Shown piece after piece: positions 13,042-35,697 of a stretch of DNA of 50,097 nucleotides. The position numbers were made by a program, and so were the translations under genes. The stretch is from Melioribacter roseus. Its GTDB lineage: Bacteria > Bacteroidota > Ignavibacteria > Ignavibacteriales > Melioribacteraceae. The stretch lies in contig DYLN01000011.1 in NCBI GenBank assembly GCA_020722085.1, forward strand, positions 1-50,097, written 5' to 3'. The notes beneath the pieces were generated by a model. It was not told the DNA's origin. It made no database searches and saw only the letters and a list, made by a program, of their open reading frames with translations. The stretch's first letter is position 1. The number at the start of each line of letters is the position of its first letter.

Positions 13042-13743
13042 CTAAAATAACCAATGAAAAAACTTGGTCAGCCAGCCGGGCTTTTGTGCATTGTCGATTA
13101 TTCCGTTTCCCTCAAAGACAATTTCTGCTTCGGAAATATTATACGAGAGCACTGAATTATCGGCTGCAATATCCGACGGTCTCACTATACCTTTTATATA
13201 AATCATCTGGTCTTCGCCGTTAATCGATATTTTGCGGCTTCCTTTTATCAGTAAATTTCCATTTGCAAGCACTGAGTCTATTGTGGCACTTATTTTTGTT
13301 CTTACTACTCCAATAGTTTTTGTTGAACCAGAGCCGGAGAAGTCATTTCCGGTACTAAGTGCACCGTTGGCAGTTGTTGATGTTTTATTATTCATATCGA
13401 AGCTGGCACCAATGCTTAAATCACTTGTTCTGCCGGTTTTTGTTTCCGCATTATTTGATGCCTGTGAAGACTCTACTACAATTATTGTAATAGCATCACC
13501 GACTTTTGCAGCTTTATAATCGGAGAAAAGTGAATAACCGGCGTTGGGACTCATGTTTTGTGAATATAAAACCGAAACAAATAGAAAAAACAAGAGAGAA
13601 TGAATAAATGCTTGCCCGCCGAAGGCGAGGTCTCGCCAAAGGACGGACCCGCCGAAGGCGAGGTCTCGCCATAAGGCGGAAATGGATGAATGTACAAACC
13701 ATTCATTCTTCAATTCCTTCCACTTTATATTTTTACATTTCAT
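13042..13743 (-). CDS. flgH: Flagellar L-ring protein FlgH with repeat-derived N-terminal insert
   Basis: The outer-membrane ring of the flagellum. The conserved body runs from SLFSDYKAAKVGDAITIIVVE to VRPSDIAADNSVLSYNISEAEIVFEG. The N-terminus is odd. After 17 residues a 30-residue stretch (18-47) encoded by a GC-rich repeat carries two copies of LWRDLAFGG, and only then comes the hydrophobic core LLFFLFVSVLYS. Removing the insert leaves a normal signal peptide. There is no lipobox Cys, whereas FlgH is usually a lipoprotein. The ATG at 13743 was chosen over a TTG at 13755 because it lies just after the flgA stop. Whether this protein is still exported well cannot be judged from sequence. Confidence 0.94.
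   Translation of the reverse strand: MKCKNIKWKELKNEWFVHSSISALWRDLAFGGSVLWRDLAFGGQAFIHSLLFFLFVSVLYSQNMSPNAGYSLFSDYKAAKVGDAITIIVVESSQASNNAETKTGRTSDLSIGASFDMNNKTSTTANGALSTGNDFSGSGSTKTIGVVRTKISATIDSVLANGNLLIKGSRKISINGEDQMIYIKGIVRPSDIAADNSVLSYNISEAEIVFEGNGIIDNAQKPGWLTKFFHWLF
13603..13692 (-). repeat. GC-rich palindromic repeat inserted in the flgH signal region
   Basis: Two 23-bp copies of an identical GC-rich unit lie at 13615-13637 and 13648-13670, spaced 33 bp apart. Each contains the palindromes GGCGAG-AC-CTCGCC and CGCC-TTC-GGCG. The block is far more GC-rich than its surroundings. GAATG occurs at both edges (13598-13602 and 13688-13692), so the inserted unit including one copy is 90 bp, a multiple of three, and leaves the flgH frame open. 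It looks like a small REP or MITE-type element that inserted with a 5-bp target duplication. The family name is unknown to me. Confidence 0.75.
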
Positions 13744-13747
13744 CTTT

Positions 13748-14392
13748 CTACTCAATTATTAAAACTCTATTTTTATCATAAATTTTGGCGAAGAAATACT
13801 TGTTATCCGTTGTTCTAATTTTAATTACATCGCCGGTGTAACCTTCCTGCCGTGCAAACGCCGGCATGTTAATCATTACATTGCCTCTAATCATAACTGC
13901 TGTTACGCTTTGACCTAAATTTATATCCGGCAGTTTTTCTGTATTTTCAATTAAAACCGGCTCACCTTTTCTTATAAATGTTTTTGAACGTCTGCCTGAA
14001 ATTTGATCGAAAGACTCAGCAGCTTTGCCCGGCAGCGATGCAACATCAACAAGTCTGCTGACCAATTCCGAGCTTTCAATTTCTTCTTTTGGCTTTATAT
14101 CATTTTTTGCAGCAAGCACTTCTTTATATAGAGTTAATTCAACAGTTATGATAAATTTTTCAACTTTACCGTTAACAATATTTTGAGCGGTTATGTAGCC
14201 ATATTTCCCGTGTTTTTTAAATTCTGCGGTTTCGGGAATTGTAATTTTACCAGCATCTACTTTCGTAATAATTTTGAAAGAGAATGATTCATATCCTTTC
14301 AGTTTGAGTGAGAGATACTGTTTCAAATTATTTTCAAAATTTCCCGATGAAAGGGAAAAACTGCTCAATATGTAAACTACAAGTAAAAACAT
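13748..14392 (-). CDS. flgA: P-ring assembly chaperone FlgA
   Basis: A 214-residue periplasmic protein with a hydrophobic signal segment (MFLLVVYILSSFSLSSG). The C-terminal SAF domain is recognisable: AAKNDIKPKEEIESSEL, then RKGEPVLIENTEKLPDI, then QSVTAVMIRGNVMINMPAFARQEGYTGDVIKIR, ending in FFAKIYDKNRVLI. FlgA helps FlgI subunits assemble into the P ring. It sits between flgG and flgH, a common arrangement. Its length matches E. coli FlgA (219). Confidence 0.94.
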   Translation of the reverse strand: MFLLVVYILSSFSLSSGNFENNLKQYLSLKLKGYESFSFKIITKVDAGKITIPETAEFKKHGKYGYITAQNIVNGKVEKFIITVELTLYKEVLAAKNDIKPKEEIESSELVSRLVDVASLPGKAAESFDQISGRRSKTFIRKGEPVLIENTEKLPDINLGQSVTAVMIRGNVMINMPAFARQEGYTGDVIKIRTTDNKYFFAKIYDKNRVLIIE

Positions 14393-17790: not shown

Positions 17791-18667
17791 TTTTAACTCC
17801 TAATTCGTTTGCTTGTTCAATTAAAGTTAATACGTAATTATTGATAAAGTTGTCAACATCCTCAACGGAGTTGAATCTGAATACATCCAGTACTTTTGTG
17901 TCAAAAGTAAGGTCTTTATCCCAATAATATTTATCACCAAAAGTTTTGTAGATTAAATAATCTGCAAGATGGACAAGAGTCGGCAGGTATTTGTCAATCG
18001 ACGAATTGGAAGGAGTATGATGGAAATTAACAGCATTTGAAATTGCATCCGGTAAATTCCATTTGTTCAACAAAAACTTTGCGACCTCTTCGTGAGTCAT
18101 GCCGAGAATCTGTTTTTCCGCTTCCAGCACCGGCGTATTATTTTGCTGAACCTCTTCATAAATATGAACAAAGCTCGAATGCATAAATCGGTGTATAATT
18201 GAAATACCTATGTCATGAATAAATCCTGCAATAAAAGCTTTATCGGAATCAACGTAACCCAGATCATAAGCAATACGTTTTGATAAAAGTCCGGTGAGAT
18301 ATGAATGAATATAAAATTCTTTTTGGTCAAGATATTTATCCGATTTGTTCTTCAACAACTCAAGGATTGCCAGTGCAGTAACGATACTTTGCAATTCGGT
18401 ATAGCCTAGAATCATGATGGCAAAGTCAATCGAAGATACTATTTTCTGCAGTCCGTAATACGGCGAATTAGCAATTGACAGAATTTTAACAACAAGACTC
18501 TGATCTTTCGATATTTCTTTGCTCAATTCAGACGTTGTTGTTCTCTCATTATTAATTAATGTGAGAACATTTGAAAGAACTTCCGGCATCACAGGAAGAG
18601 TGTAAACATTATTTATTATTAATTCCGTTCTTTCTCTTTTCGGGTTGATCTCAGTTTCGTTAAGCAT
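17777..18667 (-). CDS. HDOD domain protein, second of a tandem pair
   Basis: A 296-residue HDOD protein, clearly a paralogue of the gene just upstream. Family landmarks are LPVMPEVLSNVLTLI, SKDQSLVVKILSIANSPYYG and the metal-like residues of the HD fold in FIHDIGIS, THEEVAKFLL, NKWNLP, NFHHTP and VHLADYL. HDOD proteins are signalling or scaffold proteins found near chemotaxis and flagellar genes, and no enzyme activity is established for most. It is followed by the degenerate kinase with a 14-base overlap, so the two are probably made as a unit. Confidence 0.93.
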   Translation of the reverse strand: MLNETEINPKRERTELIINNVYTLPVMPEVLSNVLTLINNERTTTSELSKEISKDQSLVVKILSIANSPYYGLQKIVSSIDFAIMILGYTELQSIVTALAILELLKNKSDKYLDQKEFYIHSYLTGLLSKRIAYDLGYVDSDKAFIAGFIHDIGISIIHRFMHSSFVHIYEEVQQNNTPVLEAEKQILGMTHEEVAKFLLNKWNLPDAISNAVNFHHTPSNSSIDKYLPTLVHLADYLIYKTFGDKYYWDKDLTFDTKVLDVFRFNSVEDVDNFINNYVLTLIEQANELGVKIEAN

Positions 18668-32898: not shown

Positions 32899-35697
32899 CT
32901 AAATAATAAAATCGTATGTGTTGTAGCCCATATTTTTTACTATTTCTATCTTAACATTTTTCATTCCGGCTGGAGTAATATTTTCAACTGCTGCTTTTTT
33001 CTTTTTATTCGTTTGTGCAGGTTTTTTTTGTCCCGAATCTGTAGTAACACTGTAATTCTTGACACTCAATCCGCTCTCGAGAAGCGCATTTTGAAGAACA
33101 TCTACATTATTTTTTAATATCTGTTTCACAAGATCATTTTCAACATGAATTTTCGCACTCACCGCGTTTTTATCGACTTCAATAGAAACATTTATTTTGC
33201 CGAGATTTTCCGGTTCAAGCTTTATAACTATCTCTTTTTTATCGCTGTTCTTAATTGAATTCGATAATTCATTTATAAGATTATTTATATGCACTGCCGG
33301 TTTTAAGTTTGTATCAGAAATTCCGGGTTTCATTATTAAAGTATTGTTTAATTTATCAACTATATAAGCAGCTTTTTCACTGCCGGCAAAACCGTTATTG
33401 TTTTCCCGCGGAGTGGTCAATTCCGATTTGCTGGTATCGGTAAATTTTGATGTGTCAGTTAATTCTTTAATGCTGCCTGACGAAACTGAGTTATCTTTTC
33501 CGTTTACATTTTTGTCTGCCTGTGTCATATCCTCTTTTTTCGAGGCATTGACAACATCTTCTGCCTTATCTGCAGAATAATTATTGCTGGTATTTACAGG
33601 CTTATTATCATCCAATACAAAATTAAAATTAGCAGACTTGGGTTGATTATCATTGTAAGTTTTGGAAGCCGCAGAATTAACTTCAATAATTTTTGTTTTC
33701 ACGCCGTTGTTTTTATCGGCACCGGTTTCAGCAGTATTGTGATGAGAAGAATTTTCAGGACTTTCCGCAGGGTGTTTATCCGCTTGTGAGTCAATTTCAG
33801 CAGAGTTCAATTTGTTATGCAGGTCAATAATCTTACCGGAAGATTGTAAATCTGGTTTCATGCCGTTCTTAGTTTCACCATCATTTTGATTTACATTAAT
33901 AGAAGCAGCCGTTGTTTGCTCAAAATTAATTCCACGAAGCGGCTCATTCCAATTAGTATCGGCAAAATTCTTACTCTGGCTTTGCTGCATATTTTTTAAC
34001 AACTCAAACGAGGCATTGACAACATCTTCTGCCTTATCTGCAGAATAATTATTGCTGGTATTTACAGGCTTATTATCATCCAATACAAAATTAAAATTAG
34101 CAGACTTGGGTTGATTATCATTGTAAGTTTTGGAAGCCGCAGAATTAACTTCAATAATTTTTGTTTTCACGCCGTTGTTTTTATCGGCACCGGTTTCAGC
34201 AGTATTGTGATGAGAAGAATTTTCAGGACTTTCCGCAGGGTGTTTATCCGCTTGTGAGTCAATTTCAGCAGAGTTCAATTTGTTATGCAGGTCAATAATC
34301 TTACCGGAAGATTGTAAATCTGGTTTCATGCCGTTCTTAGTTTCACCATCATTTTGATTTACATTAATAGAAGCAGCCGTTGTTTGCTCAAAATTAATTC
34401 CACGAAGCGGCTCATTCCAATTAGTATCGGCAAAATTCTTACTCTGGCTTTGCTGCATATTTTTTAACAACTCAAACGCACTCGAATCTGTAGTTTCGGT
34501 CTGTGCCGGTGCAGTTTGGGAACGGACTTTATCCGGCTGATAATTTCTGATATTAAATATTGCCGGTGTATTATTGTCGTTTTCTTCGGGTTGAATGAAA
34601 ATAATACGACCGCCGGCAAGTTTATTGCTTACATCAACAGAGAAATCATCAACATTCTTTGTGCCCGAATTATTTAATAAACTTTTCCCGTCATTTGTTT
34701 TTACAGAATTATCAAAAGGTGATTCCGCAATTTTAAACTGTAAATCTAAATCCGGTTCAGATGCCGAAGGGTTAATTTCAACTACAAAAAGCTTATTGCT
34801 TCCATCTTTTTTGAAGATGGAAGCATTAGATAATTCCGGGGCAGTTTTGCTTTCCCGGGTAATTTTTAATAACTGCTCGTTTACTTTTTCATTTTCTGAA
34901 TCAGCAGCATTTGTAAAATTTTCGGCATTTGCGGCTGTATTTCTAAATTCGACTTTCGACAGTTCATTATTAAAATCATTTAATATTGACTTTGCCGTTT
35001 CGCTTTGGATACTATTAGCTTCCGACTGTTTTATGACGAACTTAATACCGTTTGATAAAATTTCAATATTGCTTCCCTGTTGATTAAGCAGATTTAAAAT
35101 TGTGTCGTCAATAGAAGCATTTCCGTTCGCTGCATTTTCATTTTTGCCTTTATTCGGGTGATTTATTTTTAACTCATCTATTCCCCCTACGTTATTAATA
35201 TCATTGATAAGCTGTGAAAGCTGATCTGCATTAACAACTATGGAAAATTTCTTTATCAATATATTATTTGTCGCTGAAACTTCTTCTTTTACTTTATTAG
35301 TCTTAATTTGATTTAAAAGAAAAAGTAGCTGGTTAAAATCAACCAAGAGAGGCAGATTGGTATTCATAGTCCCGGGAATAGTCGCTTTTTCTGTTTTGTC
35401 TTTTGACTCTGTTTTAGACCCTGTTTCTTTGCTTAACCCGATGTTCTTTTCTCCGCGGACAGAATCAGGGAACATCAGTTTAATTAGTGATAAAGTGTTA
35501 CTCCCCTTCGCGTCTAATAATTTATTCCCAGAAGCAGCATCAGTGTCCGCATCCATGTTGGCAACTTCATCAGAGCTGTTCATATTCAATTTTATAATAT
35601 CGCTAAACAAATAAGTGGTTTTTGGAACTGATCTGCTGCGGCTCGCCCCGTTATTAGCAGGGATATCAAGAAGGAATATTGGGTTAAATGTCATCAT
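32899..35697 (-). CDS. fliK: Hook-length control protein FliK with internal tandem duplication
   Basis: 932 residues, more than twice Salmonella FliK (405). The first 800 residues are polar, Asn/Ser/Lys-rich and probably unfolded, as expected for the secreted ruler part. The C-terminal Flg_hook domain (about 810-900) has [19 protein letters not shown] and [22 protein letters not shown], which contacts FlhB to switch export specificity. Residues 408-563 and 564-719 are identical copies encoded by a perfect 468-bp tandem repeat. Without it the protein would be 776 residues. It starts by overlapping the MotE-like gene by 4 bases and precedes flgD. Confidence 0.95.
33541..34476 (-). repeat. Perfect 468-bp tandem duplication inside fliK
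   Basis: Bases 33541-34008 and 34009-34476 read identically, by eye, along the full 468 bp (156 codons), with a further CG shared at the right edge (34477-34478). The frame is preserved. Absence of even silent changes indicates a very recent event or active gene conversion. The 2-base shared edge fits illegitimate recombination or replication slippage. An assembly error should also be considered. Confidence 0.95.

Follow-up and report, generated by a model that had tools for sequence, protein, structure and literature searches.

The stretch of DNA analysed (the window; 50,097 nucleotides of a Melioribacter roseus contig) carries flgH on the minus strand (13042–13743), an entry in the list of open reading frames that encodes a flagellar L-ring protein of 233 aa. 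Residues 73–236 of the product match the Pfam family FlgH (PF02107, 2.4e-49). The start codon is the ATG at 13743, and an alternative TTG at 13755 would give four more residues. According to Pfam, the genes on the two sides of flgH encode FlgA- and FlgI-family proteins, one each, and the remaining neighbours resemble flagellar rod genes by eye. Elsewhere in the window, an ORF of 932 aa (32899–35697, minus strand), whose C-terminus resembles the FliK hook-length protein, contains 468 bp (156 codons) duplicated in tandem with 100% identity (33541–34478); the duplication is very recent if not an artefact of assembly.

The repeat block in flgH

A GC-rich block (70% GC, versus 36% for the window) lies in frame within flgH, after the start and before the hydrophobic segment LLFFLFVSVLY. 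It consists of two tandem units with a period of 33 bp (13615–13680) that are 91% identical, namely CCCGCCGAAGGCGAGGTCTCGCCAAAGGACGGA (13615–13647, plus strand) and CCCGCCGAAGGCGAGGTCTCGCCATAAGGCGGA (13648–13680, plus strand). Each unit contains GGCGAG-GT-CTCGCC and the 23-mer CCCGCCGAAGGCGAGGTCTCGCC, located at 13615–13637 and 13648–13670, so that the two palindromic, in-frame 23-bp units near the 5' end of flgH described in the initial annotation were confirmed. The hairpin of the block is strong (RNA −51.6 kcal/mol, z −3.3; DNA z −3.1), and the expected number of occurrences of the 22-bp core in shuffled windows was 0.00.

FlgH was present in 41 of 58 genomes, including the source genome. 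In the 40 relatives the alignment starts no earlier than residue 50, and ordinary short signal peptides are seen in the 16 complete N-termini inspected. The closest comparison for empty sites was a genome of the same genus and a different species (G001). Both the start MK(C/H)KNI and the cleavage region SQNMS are conserved between the two proteins, with 60 residues ahead of SQNMS in the FlgH studied here versus 18 in the same-genus protein, a difference of exactly 42 codons. The G001 gene, shorter by 126 bp, represents an empty site, and the insert is therefore not common to all related flgH genes. These comparisons support an insertion: neither G001 nor any other relative with a match has the block in its FlgH.

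The motif GAATG occurs on both sides of the block (13598–13602 and 13688–13692, both plus strand) with a spacing of exactly 90 bp, as had been noted. Deletion of these 90 bp had been proposed to restore the leader, but 12 residues would still be extra relative to the same-genus protein, and the true insert may therefore be larger. Because the same-genus FlgH is exactly 42 codons shorter and the relatives align only from residue 50, the insert is probably closer to 126 bp than to 90 (13597–13722, unstranded, 42 codons), with borders that are only approximate since signal peptides do not align. An exact 9-bp pair, AGAATGAAT on the plus strand (13597–13605) and its partner on the minus strand (13701–13709, reading ATTCATTCT on the plus strand), may represent terminal inverted repeats. 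Enclosing 13597–13709, it would extend the element beyond 13692, which is suggestive only, the pair not being significant alone (shuffle p 0.18). An inverted repeat in the copy at C133 gave p 0.03.

The insert would add a long polar n-region (..ALWRDLAFGGSVLWRDLAFGGQAFIHS) to the leader of FlgH, leaving the hydrophobic core and cleavage region behind it intact. From the sequence, signal-peptide function is predicted to be retained and the lengthened protein would still be exported. As the added residues precede the hydrophobic core, lengthening the n-region, the insert should be removed together with the signal peptide on export.

Distribution of the repeat family

The family was defined by degenerate patterns and by three profile models with rough E-values, R1 being trained with the flgH units included, and R2 and R3 being built without flgH. 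Related copies were found at about 15 loci of the source genome (E<0.01 by R1 or R2), i.e. flgH, C184, C121 (two), C67, C53, C333, C21, C12, C133, C298, C214, C85, C137 and C35. The genome search proposed in the initial annotation, for which a lack of other copies would have spoken against mobility, thus recovered a multi-copy family. R1 gave 13 matches at E<0.006, and R2 added C85, C137 and C35. Weaker matches were observed at C115, C38, C113, C152 and C37. The link between flgH and the family is not circular, because models made without flgH match it: R2 with E 0.007 genome-wide and 9.8e-05 within the window, and R3 at both flgH units (E 8.6e-07 for the first and 1.9e-06 for the second).

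The centre GAGRTCTCGCC is common to a simple form of about 35–45 bp (CCCGYC-NNN-GRCGRGGTCTCGCC-TAAA-GGCGG) and to a 75–85 bp composite form. Most composite copies are intergenic. The flgH copy comprises two units, about 113–126 bp including flanks, and at C133 flgH-like ends enclose a middle of the composite form, making this copy a mosaic.

Other short repeats were also detected. A long GC-rich mosaic of CGTCAGACTTCGCTCGTCAGAGTTCG and GTGACGAAGTCACG lies between family copies at L068/L097 (G000:C121, about 18290–18490), and a comparable block occurs at C152 (L109); from these mosaics it seems that more repeat families exist in the source genome. A possibly related repeat, with three tandem 23-bp units resembling ACTCGCCTTCGGCGGAGTTTTCA, lies at L065 (G000:C73, 15862–15921), near a stretch that reads N.

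No match to R1 or R2 was found in G001, and in ten other genomes R1 gave only weak matches (E>0.03), in two of the ten. Of 395 scanned genomes of the phylum, the source genome alone matched at E<=1e-4 and the other 394 did not; with a maximum of 16 candidates scored in each genome, weak copies elsewhere in the phylum may be missed. R3 detected nothing at the flgH loci of 29 relatives, and the exact 22-mer, with up to two mismatches allowed, matched flgH alone across 79 genomes of the taxonomic family. Searches of viral contigs, phages and plasmids for the repeat gave zero matches. Rfam holds no family for it, and a single sub-threshold Rfam match was dismissed as chance. Among 84,980 species genomes searched by pattern, one MAG, L076 (JAHIPW010000051.1), gave a match, where a similar palindrome at 385–410 (26 bits to R1) adjoins a GIY-YIG-like ORF. 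This palindrome is either convergent or horizontally shared.

Copies in coding regions and their flanking motifs

In hemG (protoporphyrinogen oxidase, TIGR00562), a 72-bp in-frame insert of 24 codons, in which the palindrome is combined with a GAGTGCA minisatellite, is missing from nine relatives, G001 included. The data support tolerance of the repeat in frame in the export-signal region of FlgH, with hemG as a second clear case. The protein encoded at C184 has about 12 codons more than six relatives, and at C12 (CcoS-like) and C37 (glycosyltransferase-like) family copies coincide with C-terminal extensions. The composite copy at L157 (G000:C12, 6507–6586) is fused onto the C-terminus of the CcoS-like ORF (TIGR00847), which it lengthens. 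An RlmI-like protein (C115) has 14 extra codons, but was dropped as proof of insertion because the G001 protein is equal in length and different in sequence; it represents either an older, eroded insertion or something unrelated. The linker at C38 was too variable to judge. flgH and C184 share one reading frame of the repeat (SA[LF][WR]RD); in hemG, C115 and C38 a second frame is used. That the choice of frame is non-random is only a lead, as it comes from five cases, three of them weak.

GAATG had been regarded as resembling a simple 5-bp target duplication. Among 17 copies, however, it occurs within 30 bp on the left in four and on the right in six (background 2.8%), and AATG is present on both sides in six (background 1.8%). 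Since these motifs flank other copies far above background, a simple target duplication is not supported, and element ends or a preferred target motif are more likely. A clean target duplication was not found among the family copies. At hemG, the unoccupied G001 site already has the left GAATGCA, and the insert brought the right one, which would fit duplication of a preferred target. CCATTC lies to the right of three of the four simple copies (at two besides flgH), a pattern noticed post hoc.

Origin of the family and comparison with known systems

These results make it probable that the block in flgH represents a copy of a small, non-autonomous palindromic family that multiplied in this lineage and inserted in frame at tolerant sites. 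As far as searched, the family seems to be new, lineage-restricted and of MITE/RPE type. It would have multiplied mostly or wholly after the split from G001, with copies inserting between genes and into coding genes where length and frame permit, such as the leader of FlgH, a loop of HemG and a loop of the C184 protein, and possibly at an earlier time the PUA domain of the RlmI-like methyltransferase. We infer that the copies were most likely moved by a trans-acting enzyme and that selection then retained only those insertions that were in frame and fell at tolerant sites. The original proposal of an element that had moved into flgH and been tolerated as an extra leader holds with respect to insertion, frame and a dispersed family, but probably not with respect to size (90 bp, 30 residues), as G001 lacks 42 codons. 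A more far-reaching version, a recently active, species-restricted palindrome that uses GAATG-like targets and preferred frames, and whose ends and length are shaped for translation as it lengthens the export signal of FlgH, appears rather doubtful.

Membership in a REP/REPIN family of the GTAG or CGTC type, mobilised by a RAYT, is unlikely. The palindromic units of 30–40 bp, paired in flgH, would fit such a family, CGTC REPs are known to sit within genes without a dedicated transposase (PMC3733652), and the source genome contains two Y1 transposase genes (PF01797, the only transposase family searched). However, no R1 match was present at the loci of either Y1 gene, and a RAYT link was rejected as no copies adjoin them. 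Moreover, the cores and flanks of 17 copies showed no GTAG tag at the unit ends, and CGTC or TGTC is found in some copies only, where it lies in the first stem instead of tagging an end; several copies have CGTC there, whereas flgH, hemG and C121a lack it.

Formation of the palindrome in place by slippage or template switching, with no movement of an element, could account for the tandem 33-bp units of flgH, the mosaic structure of several copies, and the hemG insert, whose GAGTGCA minisatellite extends the native GAATGCAGAGT sequence. It is nevertheless a shade less plausible than a REP origin, as slippage cannot create a specific 40–85 bp sequence common to about 15 dispersed loci. The strong hairpin on the coding strand, roughly 60–130 nt past the start codon, might instead mark an old functional part of flgH, e.g. 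a regulatory mRNA hairpin, but its absence from every relative with a FlgH match and the occurrence of the same family in unrelated genes make this highly improbable.

Most descriptions of protein-coding palindromes come from Rickettsia and Wolbachia, and genome decay may explain why they are tolerated there. With a family of this kind in a 3.6-Mb genome that has a flagellar gene cluster, and with filled and empty sites that can be compared with a same-genus relative, the movement of such repeats, the reason for their staying in frame and the tolerance of proteins can be studied in a second system.

The initial annotation considered coding mobile repeats in export signals to be rarely described, yet precedents exist. 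RPEs are palindromes of 105–146 bp that form in-frame fusions in 19 Rickettsia reading frames; Wolbachia and Methanocaldococcus jannaschii also have protein-coding palindromes, and the Yersinia YPAL/RU-2 MITE (locus YPO1552) forms part of the signal peptide of a predicted exported protein (PMC2229807). As in the Rickettsia, Wolbachia and M. jannaschii systems, short hairpin palindromes of one lineage are found here both between genes and in frame in conserved genes (PMC2229807). The likeness extends to a palindrome dispersed in several copies in one genome (about 15 loci) and to in-frame insertions at sites empty in relatives (24 codons in hemG, 42 in flgH). The comparison with the Rickettsia families is one of kind, not of sequence: the present family belongs to another host lineage, its units are shorter and GC-rich in an AT-rich genome, and it has fewer intragenic cases (two clear and two probable). 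As with YPAL/RU-2, a MITE-type element contributes to a signal-peptide region (PMC2229807), but the Yersinia MITE helps to form the signal of a putative new protein, whereas the flgH copy adds a polar leader to a conserved flagellar protein whose own signal stays intact behind it. REPs with GTAG or CGTC tags are likewise palindromes of 20–40 bp that occur as dimers and in some cases within ORFs (PMC3733652). The present family differs from them in that neither a consistent end tag nor an association with a RAYT was found. A literature search on such repeats in Ignavibacteria returned nothing. Since RPEs, the Yersinia MITE and REPs in ORFs have already been described, the apparently new repeat family represents a further case of a known kind.
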